A stretch of 64,000 bases of DNA from Oscillospiraceae bacterium (GTDB lineage Bacteria > Bacillota > Clostridia > Oscillospirales > Oscillospiraceae). The translations under genes and the position numbers were made by a program. Every line of letters begins with the position of its first letter. Position 1 is the stretch's first letter. The stretch is taken from positions 1 through 64,000 of the forward strand of contig SVKQ01000021.1 in NCBI GenBank assembly GCA_015068325.1. The letters are read 5' to 3'. The notes under the pieces are model-generated. The model was given only the letters and a program-made list of their open reading frames with translations, was not told the DNA's origin and did not search any database. This document shows positions 310 to 7,884 of this stretch, piece after piece.

Positions 310-1335
310 TTACCGCTGCACACGGCCCGATGCGTTTCCGGCCGCCAGCAGCTCAACCTCCTCCACACTGACCAGATTGATGTCATGTTCAATGGTGTGC
401 TTCAGGCAGGATGCCGCTGCCGCAAAATTGATGGTGTCCTGGGGTGCCTTTTTCTGCAGCAGACTGTAGATCAGGCCGGCCCCAAAGCTGTCTCCGCCGC
501 CCACACGGTCCACGATATGCACATGGTATGTGGGGGAGAAATAGGCCCTGCCCTCACAGTAAAGCATGCCGCCCCAGTTGTTGTCGCTGGCGGAGAGAGA
601 CTCCCGCAGCGTAATGGCCACCATCCGGAAGCCGAATCTCTGTGTCAGCTGCTGTGCCACAGAGACATAGCCCTGCCGGTTCAGTTCACCCTTCTCCACA
701 TTCGAGTGCTCCGCCTCGATGCCGAACACATCCTTGGCGTCCTCCTCGTTGGAGATGCAGATGTCCACATAGGGCATCAGCCGTTCCATCACCTTTGAGG
801 CCTCCGCGCGGCTCCAGAGCTTCTTGCGGTAATTCAGATCGCAGGACACAGTCAGTCCCAAGCGCTTCGCCGCCTGGCAGGCCTCCAGACAAATCTCCGG
901 CAGCTGGCCGCCCAGCGCCGGCGTGATGCCGGTGAAGTGGAACCAGTCGGCACCATGGAAGATCTCCTCCCAGTCGAAATCCGACCGGTCCGCCAGGGCG
1001 ATGGCAGATCGTGCCCGGTCATAGATCACCTTGGACGGACGCTGCGAGGCACCCTTCTCTGTGTAGTAAAGGCCCAGCCGGTCGCCGCCGCGGACCATAT
1101 GCCGCACATCGACGCCGTACTGCCGCATGGCGTTGACCGCGCACTGCCCCACCTCATGGGCGGGCACCTTGGTCACATAGGCTGTGTCGATGCCGAAGTT
1201 GGCCAGTGACGCCGCCACGTTGGCCTCGCCGCCGGCAAAGGAGGTCTCCAGCCGAGACGCCTGCACCAGGCGGAAATATCCCTCCGGATTCAGCCGTAGC
1301 ATAATCTCGCCGAAGGTCACTACCCGTTTTGCCAT
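310..1335 (-). CDS. kdgK: 2-keto-3-deoxygluconate kinase, PfkB family
   Basis: 341-residue sugar kinase that phosphorylates 2-keto-3-deoxygluconate to KDPG using ATP. The PfkB fold is shown by the N-terminal GGEANVAASLANFG substrate motif and the C-terminal signature DRVGGGDSFGAGLIY, where GGGD replaces the usual GAGD and keeps the catalytic Asp. The start ATG is preceded by AGGAGG, which lies inside the last codons of the upstream aldolase gene; the two genes are 4 bases apart and so probably translationally coupled. The partner aldolase next door makes KDG the most likely substrate, but PfkB specificity cannot be read from sequence alone. Confidence 0.88.
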   Translation of the reverse strand: MAKRVVTFGEIMLRLNPEGYFRLVQASRLETSFAGGEANVAASLANFGIDTAYVTKVPAHEVGQCAVNAMRQYGVDVRHMVRGGDRLGLYYTEKGASQRPSKVIYDRARSAIALADRSDFDWEEIFHGADWFHFTGITPALGGQLPEICLEACQAAKRLGLTVSCDLNYRKKLWSRAEASKVMERLMPYVDICISNEEDAKDVFGIEAEHSNVEKGELNRQGYVSVAQQLTQRFGFRMVAITLRESLSASDNNWGGMLYCEGRAYFSPTYHVHIVDRVGGGDSFGAGLIYSLLQKKAPQDTINFAAAASCLKHTIEHDINLVSVEEVELLAAGNASGRVQR

Positions 1336-1339
1336 CGAT

Positions 1340-1996
1340 TCATCCTCCTATCGCCGCCACGTATTCCGCGGCCAGCGCCGCGATCTCTTCGAACCGCCCC
1401 TCTGCCACCAGCTTCTTGCTGCACAGATTGCCGCCGACGCCGACGCCCACCATGCCCGCATCCAAAAAGCTCTTGATGTTGGACACATTTACGCCGCCGG
1501 TGGCCATCAGCTTCACATGGTTGATGGGTGCCCGGATAGCCTTGATATAATCAAGCCCAAGGACACCGCTGGGGAACAGCTTCACGATATCCGCGCCCCA
1601 TTTGTCCGCGTTCATGATCTCCGTGGGCGTCATGGCGCCGGGGACCGATACCAACTCCAGTTCTCTGGTCCGGGCGATAACGGACTGATCGGTATTCGGA
1701 GAGATGATAAAGGCGGCGCCTGCTGCGGCGGCAACCTCCGCCATCTCCGGCGAGGTCACCGTGCCGGCGCCGAAGATCATCCGGTCGCCCAAACGCTCGT
1801 TCAGCAGACGCAGCGTCCCCGCCGTATCCTCTGCCGCCCGGGCGCTGCTCTGGTCAAAAGTGACCTCCAGCATATCCACTCCGCCCCGGTACAGAGCTTC
1901 CGCCAGGGACAGGCACTCCTGCGCATAGATGCCTCTGGCGATGGCCACGATCTTTCGATCCAGCATATGCCGCAGTACAGTTCCTCTTTCTTTCAT
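1340..1996 (-). CDS. eda: KDPG (2-keto-3-deoxy-6-phosphogluconate) aldolase
   Basis: 218-residue class I aldolase that splits KDPG into pyruvate and glyceraldehyde 3-phosphate, the last step of the Entner-Doudoroff route. Visible motifs are the general-base segment MLEVTF near residue 45, the phosphate and strand motif FGAGTVT, and the Schiff-base lysine in VKLFPS, with the closing ATGGVN. The start chosen is the ATG after GGGAGGAATCAAT; an in-frame TTG 15 bases upstream is rejected because it precedes the ribosome binding site. Fourth in the acnX-ridA-eda-kdgK order; a 104-base gap separates it from ridA. Confidence 0.9.
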   Translation of the reverse strand: MKERGTVLRHMLDRKIVAIARGIYAQECLSLAEALYRGGVDMLEVTFDQSSARAAEDTAGTLRLLNERLGDRMIFGAGTVTSPEMAEVAAAAGAAFIISPNTDQSVIARTRELELVSVPGAMTPTEIMNADKWGADIVKLFPSGVLGLDYIKAIRAPINHVKLMATGGVNVSNIKSFLDAGMVGVGVGGNLCSKKLVAEGRFEEIAALAAEYVAAIGG

Positions 1997-2101
1997 ATTG
2001 ATTCCTCCCAATTGGAAGCAACTGGAGTGAAGAAATCTGTAAAAATCTCCTCACCCCAGTCGTCACATCAGATCATGCGCCTATGGTACGCGCACACGCC
2101 C

Positions 2102-2494
2102 TTACACCGCGGCAAAGGCAGAGATCTCAAACAGATAACCCTTGGCCACAGGGCTGGCTACCAGCGAGTAGCGGGCCGGGCCCACGGGCATGTCACTGAA
2201 ATACTTGTCGTAAACCTTGTTCATCACCTTGATGTCCTCCATGTTGGCGATGAAGCACTGGCACGCCAGGACCTTGTCCAGGCTGCTGCCGGCGGCCTCC
2301 AGCACGCTCTTCAGGTTGAGGATGGCCTGCTCCACCTGGGCCTCCATGCCGCCTTCAACCAGCTTCTCATCAGCCGTCTCGCCCACCTGTCCGGCCACGA
2401 ACAGCAGGTCGCCGTATCTGACAGCCTGGGATACGTTGTGGTTGGGCTTGGCCACCAGCGGGGTGTAGATCTTCTCAATTTTCTTCTCGGACAT
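2102..2494 (-). CDS. ridA: RidA/YjgF-family enamine/imine deaminase
   Basis: 130-residue RidA-type protein. The family forms trimers that hydrolyse 2-aminoacrylate-like enamines and imines to 2-keto acids and ammonia. The conserved Arg in GPARYSL and the conserved Glu in FEISAF match the two carboxylate- and water-handling residues of active RidA, so it should be catalytic. The start is the ATG after AAAGGAG with a 7-base spacer. It lies between the aconitase-X dehydratase and the KDPG aldolase, which fits a role in hydrolysing an enamine made by the dehydratase. General housekeeping detoxification is the alternative. Confidence 0.88.
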   Translation of the reverse strand: MSEKKIEKIYTPLVAKPNHNVSQAVRYGDLLFVAGQVGETADEKLVEGGMEAQVEQAILNLKSVLEAAGSSLDKVLACQCFIANMEDIKVMNKVYDKYFSDMPVGPARYSLVASPVAKGYLFEISAFAAV

Positions 2495-2530
2495 GTCTAT
2501 TCTCCTTTCAAATCGATGCACTCAGTGCAT

Positions 2531-2971
2531 TTATTTGTTCTGCTCTTCCGCGGGGATCAGGATCTCCACCGTGCCCTTGTCTCCGTCCAGACGGACATAG
2601 TCGCCGTCGTGGATCAGCTGGCAGGGATCGCAGCCCTCCGGGAAATCCGCCACGCAGGGCCGCTGGGTGGCCAGGATCGCCGTGCCGCATTTGGAGTCCA
2701 TCTTGGTGAACACAAAGCCGACGGGCCCTACGCCGTTGCGCTGACAATCGTCAAAATAGTCCGACCAGGCGATGGAGCCGCGGGAGCAGGGCACCACCAG
2801 TACCTTGCCCTTGATGCTCTCGCCCTGATGGATGTGGCCGCTCTCGATGATCTCACCGGTCCGTGCGTCCAGGCCGTTCCAGCCCAGAATGCTGTTGGGG
2901 CAAACGAGGGCGTAGCCCTCCACCGCGGGGCCCTTCGCCGGCCTCGCCTGCAAAACCAAACCCTTACGCAT
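2531..2971 (-). CDS. Aconitase X small subunit (swivel domain, DUF126)
   Basis: 146-residue swivelling-domain subunit of an aconitase-X type hydro-lyase. Diagnostic features are VEGYALVCPNSILGWNGLD near the start, the VVPCSRGSIAWSDYF segment in the middle, and CDPCQLIHDGDYVRLDGD near the end. Known members dehydrate cis- or trans-3-hydroxy-L-proline or phosphomevalonate. The start overlaps the end of the large-subunit gene by 8 bases, which implies coupled translation and 1:1 assembly. The substrate is not known here; the neighbours argue for a sugar-acid-like compound. Confidence 0.85.
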   Translation of the reverse strand: MRKGLVLQARPAKGPAVEGYALVCPNSILGWNGLDARTGEIIESGHIHQGESIKGKVLVVPCSRGSIAWSDYFDDCQRNGVGPVGFVFTKMDSKCGTAILATQRPCVADFPEGCDPCQLIHDGDYVRLDGDKGTVEILIPAEEQNK

Positions 2972-4289
2972 GGCGCTTCACCTCCCAATAGCCTTTCACA
3001 GCCGCATCGCAGACCTCTTCATCCGTGCCGTAGTACAGGGGCACCGTCTGCTCAGACTTGCTGCTGATCGTCAGTTTGCCGGCCGACAGGCCGATGCCTA
3101 CGGCGCCTCTGGCCACGTTGATGGTGCGCAGGATGCAACCGCTGGTCAGCACCTTGGCGCCGGTCCTCTCCAGCCGGTCGATGATACCGGACTGCTTGGC
3201 CATGGCGTACTGGGCAATGTTGGTGAACAGGCAGAAGCGGACGCCCTCCTTCACCTTCTTGCCCTCCATATAGCGGGCGATGCGGGCCAGTTCTTCGGCC
3301 GACATGTTGGGGCAGCCCAGCTGCAGGAAGTCCACCGGACCGCTGACGGGATGGCACATATCGTCGATATGGGCGTTGATGATGTCATCGGTGATGGTGA
3401 ATTCGCCCTGTGGCTCATGGCCGCCCATGGCCATCTCATAGGTCTGCGCCTCGGGAGACACGCCTACGATCAGGCACATTTCACAGCCGCTGGCCACGGC
3501 CAGCGCCGTGAAGAAGGTCTTCAGCTTGACCAGATCCGGCGTTGGGAAGTCGCCGGTGACCACCGGGATGGCGTTGGGGACCAGCCGCTCGCCGATGGCG
3601 AATCCCAGCATATCCCACTGCTGCTTGGTATCCAGATGGCAGTCGATGTGGAACACATGGGTGCCGTGGCGGTTTTCGGGCAGATGCAGGCCCCACTTGG
3701 GTGTTCTGCCGCAGATGGCGGCGCAGAAGGTAGTGATGCCGCCGCCGCCGTTGCACTTGGCACCCAGCACCGAGTTGCAGTAGAGCACATTGGAGCTCTC
3801 CGTGGTGACCACATACTCGCCCATGGTGGGCAGCCAGCCCGCCAGATAAGGCGCGCAGGTACTGCCGATCACCACACCGTGGTCGGCCGCCGCCTTCAGG
3901 ATCTCCATGTTGTTGTCATAAAAGGACTTGGGCTGCTGCGTCCACTCCCAGCCGAAGGTGTCGGTGCAGTGCACGTCGTCAATGACATACGTGTCGGTAC
4001 AGAACTGGTGGAATTCCTTCGGATCCAGTCCGGTGCACTTGTGCTTCGTCTGATAGTCGTCGTAGCCCTTTGCCAGCGTCTCCGGCCGATCCAGCACGCC
4101 GTCCGGGAAGTCCGCCGGCGAAGCGGTAGAGCCGCAGCACAGGTGGGCCTTGGTGATAGGCACCAGCTCTTCTGCGCCGAGGATCTCCGCCAGCTCAACG
4201 ATCTTGCTCAGGGCAATGCGCTTTGCCTCGCCCCGCTCACCGTTCAGCATCCGCTGTTCTTCTTCCGTCAGTCTCACTCTCATATGCAT
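2964..4289 (-). CDS. Aconitase X catalytic large subunit (DUF521)
   Basis: About 440 residues, normal for the family. It carries the cysteine-rich active-site segments typical of aconitase X: AHLCCGSTASPADF, GSTCAPYLAGW, NSVLGAKCNGGGGITTF and, near the end, TSGCILRTINVARGAVG. These Fe-S enzymes remove the alpha proton and a 3-hydroxyl group. Start choice is uncertain: ATG at 4289 has an AGAG-type binding site, while ATG at 4283 has GGGA upstream; a GTG at 4295 is less likely. It is the first gene of the acnX-acnX-ridA-eda-kdgK operon and is divergent from an IclR regulator. Confidence 0.87.
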   Translation of the reverse strand: MHMRVRLTEEEQRMLNGERGEAKRIALSKIVELAEILGAEELVPITKAHLCCGSTASPADFPDGVLDRPETLAKGYDDYQTKHKCTGLDPKEFHQFCTDTYVIDDVHCTDTFGWEWTQQPKSFYDNNMEILKAAADHGVVIGSTCAPYLAGWLPTMGEYVVTTESSNVLYCNSVLGAKCNGGGGITTFCAAICGRTPKWGLHLPENRHGTHVFHIDCHLDTKQQWDMLGFAIGERLVPNAIPVVTGDFPTPDLVKLKTFFTALAVASGCEMCLIVGVSPEAQTYEMAMGGHEPQGEFTITDDIINAHIDDMCHPVSGPVDFLQLGCPNMSAEELARIARYMEGKKVKEGVRFCLFTNIAQYAMAKQSGIIDRLERTGAKVLTSGCILRTINVARGAVGIGLSAGKLTISSKSEQTVPLYYGTDEEVCDAAVKGYWEVKRHA

Positions 4290-4604: not shown

Positions 4605-5351
4605 ATGCAGATGCACCGCTCCACACAACGGGTCATCGATATATTAGACCTGTTGGCTTATCACGAACGGGCAGACGGCCTCTCCCTGACGGATATCGCC
4701 GGTCGGTTGGACGCGCCAAAAAGCAGCCTCTTCCCGATCCTGCGCACGCTGGCAGGCGCAGGCTATCTCCGCTATGATGCGACCACCTCAAAATACACGA
4801 TCGGGCGCCGCCTGTTCGAGGTCGGCAACAGCTTTGTGGCGAAGGACAATTTCTATCAACAGGCTCTGGTCATCATGCAGGGTATCGTCGACCAGTGCTC
4901 TGAGACCTGCCATATGGCGAATCTGTACGGTTCTGAGGTCCAATATATGCTGAAGATCGATTCACCGGAGACGATCCGCATGACCTCTGCGCCTGGAAAA
5001 CGCCTCCCCGCCAACTGTACGGCTCTGGGCAAGGCGCTGTTGAGCGAGGCGTCCTGTGCAGAGCTGCAGGCACTGTTCAGCGGCGGTTTGCCCCGTATGA
5101 CGGATAAAACCATCACGGATATGGGGGAACTGTACCGCCAGCTGCAGGGAGTCCGCAAAACCGGCCTCGCCTATGAGCAGGAGGAGAACTACAGCATGAT
5201 CCAGTGCATCGCCACGCCGATCATGAAGGGCGGAAAGCCTGTGGTAGCCCTGAGCGTCTCCATGCCTACCTTCCGCGCCGCGCCTGAAAAGCAGGCTCTG
5301 ATAGAGCAGCTCCTGCTCAGCGCCAAAAAGCAGATGGAGCTCATTTTGTAA
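4605..5351 (+). CDS. IclR-family transcriptional regulator
   Basis: 248-residue cytoplasmic regulator. The N-terminal winged helix (STQRVIDILDLL, then LSLTDIAGRLDAPKSSLF and LRTLAGAGYL) is typical of IclR, and residues from about 75 form the effector-binding GAF-like domain, with the conserved LPANCTALGKALLS segment. The start follows AGGAGGT with an 8-base spacer. It is divergent from the aconitase-X operon and upstream of the alanine-dehydrogenase-like gene, so it probably controls one or both in response to a pathway intermediate such as a 2-keto sugar acid. Confidence 0.9.
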   Translation: MQMHRSTQRVIDILDLLAYHERADGLSLTDIAGRLDAPKSSLFPILRTLAGAGYLRYDATTSKYTIGRRLFEVGNSFVAKDNFYQQALVIMQGIVDQCSETCHMANLYGSEVQYMLKIDSPETIRMTSAPGKRLPANCTALGKALLSEASCAELQALFSGGLPRMTDKTITDMGELYRQLQGVRKTGLAYEQEENYSMIQCIATPIMKGGKPVVALSVSMPTFRAAPEKQALIEQLLLSAKKQMELIL

Positions 5352-5442: not shown

Positions 5443-5471
5443 TTGACATTTACATGTGCCGGTGCTACATT
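5443..5471 (+). promoter_or_regulatory. Sigma-A promoter of the alanine-dehydrogenase-like gene
   Basis: Perfect -35 TTGACA at 5443-5448, a 17-base spacer, and -10 TACATT at 5466-5471. The expected start of transcription falls at about 5478, directly before a long inverted repeat. Confidence 0.8.
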
Positions 5472-5480
5472 GCAGGTAGA

Positions 5481-5514
5481 GATTACGAACGCATATAGGC
5501 ATGCGTTCGTAATC
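5481..5514. promoter_or_regulatory. Perfect 14-bp inverted repeat at the transcription start, likely operator
   Basis: GATTACGAACGCAT at 5481-5494 and its exact reverse complement at 5501-5514 are separated by six bases. The element begins 10 bases after the -10 box, a classic place for a repressor. It could also fold in RNA as a leader hairpin. The likely ligand-responsive protein is the adjacent IclR regulator, which is inference. Confidence 0.6.
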
Positions 5515-5550
5515 GGGAACAATCACTTTTTTGCAAAGGAGTATGCTGTT

Positions 5551-6678
5551 ATGATTATTGGTATCCCCCGTGAGTTGAAGGACCATGAGACCCGCGTCGG
5601 CGGCGGTCTGATCCCCCGCAATGTTGCCACTCTCGTTTCGCAGGGCCACACCGTTTATTTCCAAAAGGGCCTTATGGAGGCTGCCGGCATATCTGACCAG
5701 GAGTATCTGGATGCCGGCGCTCTTCGTGTCGACACCATGGAAGAGATCTATGAGAAGTGCGACTTCGTCAACAAATTCAAGGATATGACCGACGGCGACA
5801 TGAAGATGCCCTTCAAAAAGGGTCAGATCATCATGACCGCTTTCCATATGGCGGAGGGCACCGCAAAGCCGGAGCAGGTGAAGATCCTGGCCGATGCGGG
5901 CGTGACCTGCATCTCTGTGGAGACCTCCCGCTATCCCGACGGTACCCGTGCCATGACCCGTCCCATGGGCGAGATCGCGGGCCGCACCGCCCCTCTGCTG
6001 GGCGGCCAGTATCTGCAGCGCCAGTACGGCGGCAGCGGTGTGTCCATCGTGCCGGTCACCGGTGCGCGCCGCGCCCGCGTCTGCATCCTGGGCGGCGGCC
6101 ACGCCGGCATGTGTGCCGCACAGACGGCTGAGGGCCTGGGTGCCGAGGTCGTGGTGTTCGATGTCAGCATCCAGCGCCTGGAGTATCTGCGCACGGTGCT
6201 GAAGAACACCTCTCTGCGCTTTATGAGCAAGGACGCCTTCGCCGAGGAAGTGGCCAAGGCAGATATGCTCATCAACTGCATCTATGCTTATCCCGGCATG
6301 GCCGTCCCCATCGTCACCCGCGAGATGGTGCGCAGCATGCGCAAGGGCTCCGTCATCGTCGACCTGGAGGGCGAGGGCATCATCGAGACCGCCAACTACA
6401 CCACCATCAGTGACCCCTACTTCATTGAAGAGGGCATCGTCCATGTTGGCGTCACCAACATCCCCGCCATGGTGCCCGCCTCGGCCAACGAGAGCTATGC
6501 GGCCTATGTGTTCCCCGTGGTGCAGGACATTGCTACCTACGGCATCAAGGAGGCGTGCAAGCGCAATCCCGTTCTGAAGAGCTGTGTCATCATGGTCAAT
6601 GGTCAGGTCACCCAGCACGAGGTGGCCAGCAGCCAGCACCGGGAGTACATTCCTCTGGATCCCGACACAATGTTCTGA
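5551..6678 (+). CDS. Alanine-dehydrogenase-like NAD(P)-dependent enzyme, diverged
   Basis: 375 residues, the usual length of alanine dehydrogenase. The pyruvate-site Arg (KDHETRVGG), Lys (VNKFKDM) and His (TAFHMAEG) are kept, as is the Rossmann motif ILGGGHAGMCAAQTAEGLGA. The segment usually reading VDVAIDQGGCIE is VDLEGEGIIETA, so the catalytic Asp position is altered, probably to Glu. The substrate may therefore differ from alanine. The start follows AAAGGAG with a 9-base spacer; a longer reading from 5443 is rejected because it would run through the promoter. It has its own promoter, operator-like repeat and terminator. Confidence 0.82.
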   Translation: MIIGIPRELKDHETRVGGGLIPRNVATLVSQGHTVYFQKGLMEAAGISDQEYLDAGALRVDTMEEIYEKCDFVNKFKDMTDGDMKMPFKKGQIIMTAFHMAEGTAKPEQVKILADAGVTCISVETSRYPDGTRAMTRPMGEIAGRTAPLLGGQYLQRQYGGSGVSIVPVTGARRARVCILGGGHAGMCAAQTAEGLGAEVVVFDVSIQRLEYLRTVLKNTSLRFMSKDAFAEEVAKADMLINCIYAYPGMAVPIVTREMVRSMRKGSVIVDLEGEGIIETANYTTISDPYFIEEGIVHVGVTNIPAMVPASANESYAAYVFPVVQDIATYGIKEACKRNPVLKSCVIMVNGQVTQHEVASSQHREYIPLDPDTMF

Positions 6679-6883: not shown

Positions 6884-7843
6884 TTATGACTGTTGCTGCC
6901 CTGCAGTATTCGACTCCGCCCGGGGTTCCACCGGCTGCGCCGGCGCCCGGTTCACCAAATAGACGCCGGTCAGTGCCATGACCGTGCCGATGCCTTGAAC
7001 GATGGTGAAGGGATCCCTCATGATAAACACGCCGCTCAGCACAGAGATGATGGTGGTCAGCGCAGCAAAGGTGCAGGTGCGGGTAGATCCTAGGATGGAG
7101 ATAGACCGGTTGGAGAGGAAGAAGGCCGTGCAGCTGCACCCGATGCCCAGATAGGCGGCGGACAGCAGGAAATCGGGATTTACAAAGGGCATTGTCAGGT
7201 AAGTGCCGATAGACCCATTGATGCCGTTTTCAATAAACGCGCCGATGGTAAAGATCACCGCACCGGTAAGGCACATGGCATACGTCCGCTCAAATACGCT
7301 GAAATGCGGCGCGGCCTTGCGGGAGACGATATAGTAGGACGAGTTGCTTGCCACTGCGCAAAAAAGCAAGAGGTATCCCACCAGGCTGAAGGTGGGGCTC
7401 ATACCTTTCACCAGCGCGATCGTCAATATACCGGCCGTTGCCAATAAGACACCCAGGATCTGTGCCCGTCTGGGCGGTTCTTTCAGAAAGAGGTAGCTGA
7501 AAGCCATGGTAATAATCGGTGTGCAGGCAATGATGGTGCTGCTCTCACTGACGGAGACGAAGCGGACGCCGAAAGTCTCGAAAACAAAGTAGGATACCGG
7601 CTGAAAGAGCGCCAGCAGCATCAGCCAGCGGAGAGGCTTTCCCCTGAAATCCACCTTAAAGATTCCCAGCAGCAGGCAGATCGTCATAGCCAGCGCGCCC
7701 AATGTAAAGCGCCAGGACAGCAGTGTAAATGTAGACACCGTTCCTATGATACGCTTGGTAAACATATAGCTCAAGCCAAACAACAGCGAACTGCAGCAGG
7801 AACCCAGAATTGCGCTGATCTCACGCCAGGACTTTTTCTGCAT
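6884..7843 (-). CDS. EamA/DMT-family permease
   Basis: 319-residue inner-membrane protein with about ten hydrophobic segments arranged as two EamA repeats. The first has LLFGLSYMFTKRIIGTV; the second ends in the typical SVLSGVFIMRDPF and TGVYLVNR. DMT exporters of this type move amino acids or other small metabolites out of the cell. The start is the ATG after AGAGGGG with an 8-base spacer; an upstream in-frame codon is rejected. It is a monocistronic unit with its own promoter. The substrate cannot be inferred. Confidence 0.85.
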   Translation of the reverse strand: MQKKSWREISAILGSCCSSLLFGLSYMFTKRIIGTVSTFTLLSWRFTLGALAMTICLLLGIFKVDFRGKPLRWLMLLALFQPVSYFVFETFGVRFVSVSESSTIIACTPIITMAFSYLFLKEPPRRAQILGVLLATAGILTIALVKGMSPTFSLVGYLLLFCAVASNSSYYIVSRKAAPHFSVFERTYAMCLTGAVIFTIGAFIENGINGSIGTYLTMPFVNPDFLLSAAYLGIGCSCTAFFLSNRSISILGSTRTCTFAALTTIISVLSGVFIMRDPFTIVQGIGTVMALTGVYLVNRAPAQPVEPRAESNTAGQQQS

Positions 7844-7884
7844 AAATATCGCCCCTCTTTGCAAGTTTGGTAAATCCAGGTACG

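Follow-up and report, generated by a model that had tools for sequence, protein, structure and literature searches.

What would an aconitase X (AcnX) enzyme do in an operon with a RidA-type imine hydrolase and the aldolase and kinase of 2-keto-3-deoxy sugar acid breakdown? The question is raised by five genes spanning positions 310–4289 of a 64,000-nucleotide stretch of Oscillospiraceae DNA (contig SVKQ01000021.1; G000:C20:1-64000, hereafter the window), which belongs to a genome of 1.96 Mb that is 95% complete. The open reading frames (ORFs) of the window and Pfam and NCBIfam profile searches with them, in which bit scores were compared with cut-offs, place the genes on one strand in the order acnX large subunit, acnX small subunit, ridA, eda, kdgK, with an IclR-family regulator gene divergent from them, just as the original prediction for this DNA had described. 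That prediction further suggested that the five proteins may form a dedicated route free of pyridoxal 5′-phosphate (PLP), by which an amino sugar acid gives exactly 2-keto-3-deoxygluconate (KDG) plus ammonia. Our analysis lends modest support to the chemistry at its core, deamination of a β-hydroxy amino acid by AcnX and RidA, and leaves an amino-sugar-acid route possible, while a specific and conserved route to KDG is insufficiently supported. We put the probability of the complete chain, from a 2-amino-2-deoxy-hexonate through AcnX, RidA, KdgK and Eda, at roughly 0.3.

The large subunit of AcnX (441 residues; positions 2964–4289, minus strand) contains the aconitase X catalytic domains 1–3 (PF04412, 315 bits, cut-off 31.5), and the small subunit (2531–2971, minus strand) is the swivel domain (PF01989, 59.9 bits, cut-off 27). 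An AlphaFold model of the large subunit, based on an alignment of 40 sequences, has a predicted local distance difference test score (pLDDT) of 87, and a Foldseek search with this model retrieved the AcnX structures 7d2r, 7cnq and 7cnr with E values between 8e-32 and 8e-29. In the alignment the catalytic core is retained. It comprises the Fe-S cysteines Cys145, Cys326 and Cys385, which follow the type II pattern, Glu164, Ser165 and Lys405 as well as Ser66 of the small subunit. The roles of these residues were transferred by alignment from AtAcnX and TkAcnX, as described in the accessible part of PMC8184944; by this analogy, Ser66 would act as the base and Lys405 as the acid.

Two AcnX substrates are known from the accessible parts of PMC8184944 and PMC5144071, and the pocket of the window enzyme looks rebuilt in a way that makes both unlikely. 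Activity on cis-3-hydroxy-L-proline (C3LHyp) is established for bacterial AcnX of types I and IIa in the same sources. The 3-hydroxyproline enzyme AtAcnX shares its fold (Foldseek E 8e-32 to 7d2r) and catalytic core with the window protein as well as Trp35, the equivalent of which is Trp31 of the small subunit, and NF051439 matches both subunits, albeit far under its cut-off (172.6 and 44.1 bits of 700). However, Asp203 and Thr72, which hold the substrate nitrogen in AtAcnX, align with Cys51 and Ala68, and the Tyr534/Tyr365 position (Tyr534 in AtAcnX), near the carboxylate water, is occupied by Ser409. This nearly invariant column is conserved in at least 90% of the 40 aligned rows, and the relatives at loci L003, L004 and L002 have Cys, Cys and Gly there, respectively. 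The window enzyme also differs from AtAcnX in the type II pattern of its cluster ligands and in its gene context; by eye, no matching pathway genes were recognised in the window.

The other characterised enzyme, TkAcnX (PDB 7cnr), is a type IIb dehydratase of mevalonate 5-phosphate (MVA5P) from the archaeal modified mevalonate pathway. It is the best sequence match in the PDB (128 bits), has the same two-subunit heterodimeric build and shares the Glu, Ser and Lys of the core, its Cys110, Cys283 and Cys342 corresponding to Cys145, Cys326 and Cys385. Unlike TkAcnX, the window enzyme is bacterial, is encoded beside sugar-acid genes and lies on a different branch of the tree. As far as the alignment reaches, the substrate-binding positions appear to differ as well: the phosphate loop of TkAcnX (Gly48, Val49, Ser50, Asn53) is matched by position, in a region of uncertain alignment, by Cys52, Gly53 and Ser54, followed by an insertion, and Asn79 by Asp105, where alignment across the insertion is likewise uncertain.

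In the tree, the window AcnX falls into a clade of eight rows of its own (support 100/99), apart from both characterised branches. The segment between the two substrate loops measures 62 residues in the window protein and its three nearest kin, 50–52 residues in the four other clade members and 36–40 in the remaining AcnX rows; these lengths refer to rows measurable as a whole, with TkAcnX and AtAcnX (both partial sequences) set aside. It contains 4–7 cysteines in the window clade versus 0–2 in other AcnX rows, and its residues 54–86 are the sole poorly predicted part of the large-subunit model (pLDDT below 50). The loss of the nitrogen-holding residues together with this cysteine-rich insertion in the pocket region makes 3-hydroxyproline an unlikely substrate; with the clade standing apart from the type I/IIa branch, we rejected C3LHyp dehydratase as an assignment on pocket residues and clade, and regard such activity as very improbable. 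MVA5P dehydratase was ruled out because the window enzyme and TkAcnX lie apart in the tree. The original prediction requires an activity other than these two, and on this point it agrees with the tree for both substrates and with the pocket residues for C3LHyp. The separate clade, the replaced pocket residues and the long cysteine-rich segment all point to a rebuilt pocket, and within the searchable literature the enzyme apparently represents an uncharacterised subclass. According to the accessible part of PMC8184944, the authors of the AcnX crystal structures found types IIc–IIf to lack the landmark residues of either known activity.

The third gene, ridA (2102–2494, minus strand; PF01042, 93.5 bits), starts with an ATG at 2494 preceded by AAGGAG and encodes a diverged member of the imine hydrolase family. 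It shares with the Rid imine hydrolases (accessible parts of PMC4433059 and PMC7311433) the family and the catalytic arginine, the conserved Arg105 of the family being Arg108 in a PAR motif by alignment; this arginine is believed to be enough to predict imine hydrolysis, as stated in the accessible part of PMC7311433. Unlike ordinary RidA, the protein has HNVSQA for GPYSQA, and thereby no conserved tyrosine, and has lost the second Glu of EIE; its partner would be an Fe-S dehydratase rather than a PLP- or flavin adenine dinucleotide-dependent enzyme. Compared with salmon RidA, in which Tyr21, Arg107 and Glu122 coordinate acetate, Arg and Glu are retained, Tyr is absent and Glu124 is replaced by Ser. 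The RidA encoded at L002 shows the same traits, with Arg and the first Glu of EIE kept and Tyr and the second Glu gone, and is 61% identical to the window RidA, versus 29–37% for other RidA-like proteins of both genomes. A structure of the window RidA predicted without an alignment was discarded (mean pLDDT 46).

RidA recurs beside this AcnX clade. At the DNA level it was found in three of the nine loci of the clade (the eight rows plus that of genome G1025) versus 2 of 112 others, namely 72 other AcnX and 40 KdgK loci; without the window the counts are 2/8 and 2/112 (Fisher p 0.022). An earlier count of called genes, made with looser limits at AcnX than at KdgK loci, gives the same picture as this DNA-level repeat, which applied one limit to 81 AcnX and 40 KdgK loci. 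Since RidA would serve an imine-forming reaction, and an imine requires nitrogen in the substrate, the recurrence weakly favours a nitrogen-bearing substrate. The predicted role of RidA as imine hydrolase in the route thus draws on the retained arginine and on this recurrence, and is weakened by the missing tyrosine and glutamate.

The remaining two genes point to the fate of the product. Eda (1340–1996, minus strand; ATG at 1996 preceded by GGGAGGA) is an aldolase for the 6-phosphates of 2-keto-3-deoxygluconate and 2-keto-3-deoxygalactonate (KDPG/KDPGal; PF01081, 128.2 bits; TIGR01182, 162.9 bits, cut-off 156), and KdgK (310–1335, minus strand) is a PfkB-family 2-keto-3-deoxy sugar acid kinase (PfkB, 122 bits), the best NCBIfam match of which is NF041633, a KDPG aldolase/sugar-kinase fusion (583 bits, below the cut-off of 700). 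Orthologues of KdgK occur in 190 of 394 genomes of the window's order, with identities up to 73%. We inspected 40 of their neighbourhoods, a non-random set taken mostly from the best-scoring of the 190 genomes. In 29 of these loci Eda is the direct neighbour, in the same orientation, and with neighbours checked against reference proteins, UxuA is nearby in 12, UxaC in 6 and a dehydratase of the MR/MLE family in 5; UxuA or an MR/MLE dehydratase is present in 17 loci, where the window operon has AcnX–RidA. The known modules of this kind (DeLey–Doudoroff and hexuronate; galactonate dehydratase or UxuA, KdgK, Eda) thus have KdgK and Eda orthologues in common with the window and differ from it in having no AcnX and RidA in the dehydratase position, so that AcnX–RidA may fill the dehydratase slot of Eda–KdgK.

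A tree of Eda sequences suggests which sugar acid is involved. The window Eda groups with seven others in an eight-row clade (support 100/100), and four of these seven have as neighbour an MR/MLE dehydratase that the galactonate dehydratase profile recognises (609–662 bits, cut-off 311); UxuA neighbours none of this clade versus 11 of the 27 rows of the other Eda clade. In this tree L164, a member of the window clade, sits on a very long branch and is unsurely placed, and UxuB and SDR labels were given by eye. Because the window Eda stems from the branch found beside galactonate dehydratase, 2-keto-3-deoxygalactonate is by these sequence comparisons the more likely keto acid for KdgK and Eda rather than KDG, and the same branch makes the predicted product, exactly KDG, doubtful. 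Genome searches, which covered AcnX, Eda, UxaC, RidA and KdgK, found no second Eda in the genome of the window and no UxaC. With a single Eda and no UxaC found, the keto acid for Eda–KdgK probably comes from a source other than UxaC-dependent uronate breakdown, which was rejected as the feeding route here. In genome G906, which also holds L002, KdgK lies between two different Eda genes, the first on the galactonate branch or the other, the second on the remaining one (L163:5160-7491).

If these observations are combined, the following mechanism can be proposed. The two acnX products would assemble into a heterodimeric Fe-S dehydratase, representing an AcnX subclass not yet characterised, in which Ser66 of the small subunit takes the α-proton and the cluster iron, with Lys405 as acid, the β-hydroxyl of a nitrogen-bearing β-hydroxy acid. 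After tautomerisation of the resulting enamine, the diverged RidA would hydrolyse the imine, releasing ammonia and a 2-oxo acid. The latter would then be converted by KdgK and by Eda of the galactonate branch to pyruvate and glyceraldehyde 3-phosphate, and an alanine-dehydrogenase-like enzyme encoded nearby could capture pyruvate and ammonia. Such a chain would start from a 2-amino-2-deoxy-hexonate, with the galacto configuration more likely than the gluco; the fully specified version, in which the galacto-configured acid gives 2-keto-3-deoxygalactonate and ammonia without PLP and both pyruvate and ammonia are recaptured by the alanine-dehydrogenase-like enzyme, is doubtful. The D-glucosaminate route of Salmonella, which consists of the DgaABCD phosphotransferase system, a PLP ammonia-lyase and the aldolase DgaF (accessible part of PMC9529869), would arrive at the same type of end, a keto-deoxy sugar acid phosphate plus ammonia followed by an aldolase step; there, a PLP enzyme acts on the 6-phosphate, whereas here an Fe-S dehydratase and RidA would act on the unphosphorylated acid. 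In the searchable literature, outside which most subscription papers lie, no paper on galactosaminate and none linking aconitase X to a sugar acid was found, and aconitase, hydroxyproline and glucosaminate are absent from the accessible main text of a comparative genomics study of the Rid family (PMC4433059).

The locus places an AcnX subclass that belongs to neither characterised branch in a gene context that narrows the choice of substrate and brings the question within reach of assays on the five purified proteins, and the subclass deserves such an assay. If the substrate holds nitrogen, Fe-S chemistry together with RidA would amount to PLP-free deamination of β-hydroxy amino acids; RidA would then be a regular pathway enzyme, beyond damage control alone.

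Within the order, 40 of 394 genomes, counting that of the window, have an AcnX above the Pfam cut-off, and in 37 of the other 39 the protein reaches only 62–89 bits against that of the window; these matches serve as controls only, since those of them placed in the tree fall in another clade, encoded behind a flavin oxidoreductase. With an E value of 1e-40 as the limit, the phylum yielded relatives of the window protein in 13 of 398 genomes, again including the window's own. Four other AcnX were found to be at least 71% identical, those of G906 (L002), G907 (L003), G908 (L004) and G1025 (L160). Neighbourhoods were compared for 80 AcnX loci of 4.6–30 kb, some truncated at contig ends, with genes called by our own script and several neighbour names assigned by eye; locus L123, where no AcnX was called, six lower-scoring of 28 genomes and 155 of 159 plasmid records were left out of the counts.

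Among these relatives, L002 has the order acnX–acnX–ridA as in the window, with an AcnX 71% identical, and a divergent operon for RpiB, transketolase halves, a transaldolase-like protein, a DapA-type aldolase and a PfkB kinase. At L003 an amino-acid permease and a carbon-nitrogen hydrolase are encoded directly upstream of AcnX, and at L161, a further context of the window clade, there are octopine-dehydrogenase-type, agmatine-deiminase-like and amino-acid-permease genes. The window-clade AcnX at L115:9091-14382 and L116:1813-10926 lie beside a BCCT transporter and an MttB-type methyltransferase, a setting of quaternary-amine demethylation, and L116 additionally encodes a B12-binding protein and a pterin-binding methyltransferase-like protein. 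The AcnX large subunit of G1025 is split over two frames (G1025:C36:55033-56350, L160), which stems from misassembly or from decay of the gene.

Several findings weigh against the complete chain. Conservation of the gene set was not borne out: all five genes occur together in 1 of the 80 AcnX loci, the window itself, and none of the 40 KdgK loci contains AcnX or RidA. RidA lies near AcnX in five of the 80 loci, Eda in two and a KdgK-like kinase in two, all three together only in the window; of the five AcnX genes that share at least 71% identity, counting that of the window, two adjoin RidA and one Eda–KdgK. The AcnX genes of G907, G908 and G1025, whose products are 80–82% identical to the window protein, stand without RidA, Eda or KdgK in the stretch compared, although the L003 contig measures only 10.7 kb, and in G907 (AcnX 82% identical), a genome whose completeness is not known, Eda was not found anywhere. 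Eda–KdgK is a portable pair, encoded in G906 on a different contig (L163) from AcnX. The statistic for RidA rests on two to three loci, two of them related, and the divergence of RidA and the replacement of the nitrogen-holding AcnX residues count on the same side.

These findings bear on a different reading, that AcnX–RidA is a self-contained deaminating dehydratase for another β-hydroxy amino or N-methyl amino acid, such as a compound of the hydroxy-asparagine or -glutamine type or a hydroxylated betaine product, to which eda–kdgK was joined by chance as a separate module. The nitrogenous contexts of the clade at L003, L115, L116 and L161 argue for it, as do the 29 of 40 loci in which Eda and KdgK stand together and AcnX is missing, the separation of this pair from AcnX in the genome of L002 and a gap with a hairpin between ridA and eda. 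Set against this, the sole Eda found in the genome sits in the operon, a terminator-like stem is present only at the operon end, and one substrate cannot account for all contexts of the clade. We consider this separate arrangement at least as probable as the complete chain.

AcnX could also be a plain Fe-S dehydratase that converts a galactonate-like acid to 2-keto-3-deoxygalactonate in place of a galactonate or mannonate dehydratase, with RidA as a bystander or an accelerator of enol or imine steps. Aconitase and the IlvD/Edd families remove an α-proton and a β-hydroxyl by the same chemistry, in IlvD/Edd with an Fe-S cluster. This shared chemistry, the galactonate dehydratase beside four of seven other members of the window Eda clade with UxuA beside none, and the failure to find UxaC in the genome are consistent with such a role, but it would explain neither the recurrence of RidA in the AcnX clade nor the nitrogenous contexts of the relatives, and G907 encodes an 82%-identical AcnX where no Eda was found. 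We therefore rate it as unlikely. Less likely again is another acid, for example a dicarboxylic hydroxy acid: a CitM-family transporter gene lies beside AcnX in G908 (L004) and near it in G1025 (L160), but this link is confined to two genomes of one family, and the G1025 copy is on the opposite strand with one gene between.

For the complete chain, the layout of the operon is supportive, with closely spaced genes and the stem at its end, as are the PfkB kinase and DapA-type aldolase encoded divergently at L002. The two acnX genes overlap by 8 nt, the small-subunit gene is followed by ridA after 36 nt, and eda and kdgK are 4 nt apart. Beyond kdgK lies a terminator-like stem of 15 pairs (238–270, strand not assigned) from a terminator-site scan that gave 10 such sites in 7 kb versus 3.6 expected by chance. 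The 105 nt between ridA and eda contain a 20-bp hairpin (2019–2062, minus strand) without a T tail, with a fold z-score of −4.85 versus shuffles, and because of this gap eda–kdgK may form a second module. The hairpin is possibly a processing or attenuation element; no second copy with up to three mismatches was found in the window, and the idea of a repeated element was rejected. Promoter-like sites were dropped as evidence, with 4 seen versus 2.9 expected.

On the other side of the operon, the divergent IclR-family gene (4605–5351, plus strand; PF01614, PF09339) is followed by the alanine-dehydrogenase-like gene (5443–6678, plus strand; PF01262/PF05222; TIGR00518, 260 bits, under the cut-off of 391.85) and by a gene for an EamA-family transporter (6884–7864, minus strand; PF00892), neither of which the original prediction had mentioned. 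The left edge of the window is a contig end, inside a fragment convergent with kdgK (2–178) that scores weakly as the C-terminal piece of a second alanine-dehydrogenase-like protein (TIGR00518, 22 bits, without a Pfam match).

Other AcnX groups have distinct neighbours. Most order-level loci (L037–L073) belong to a second AcnX clade, often encoded right behind a protein of about 690 residues, which at L066:7356-9410 is a flavin oxidoreductase of the Old Yellow Enzyme type (PF00724, 196 bits), the small subunit of AcnX having 147 residues there. This AcnX and the flavin oxidoreductase are an uncharacterised dehydratase–reductase pair. At L120, L124 and L147, two to three consecutive genes near AcnX, encoding proteins of about 220–290 residues, resemble RraA-type aldolases (one at L120 by Pfam, the rest by eye). 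In a sister AcnX group (L134, L137), an IlvD/EDD-type dehydratase is encoded directly upstream, and the downstream gene resembles by eye a relative of uroporphyrinogen decarboxylase, the L134 copy being without an NCBIfam match.

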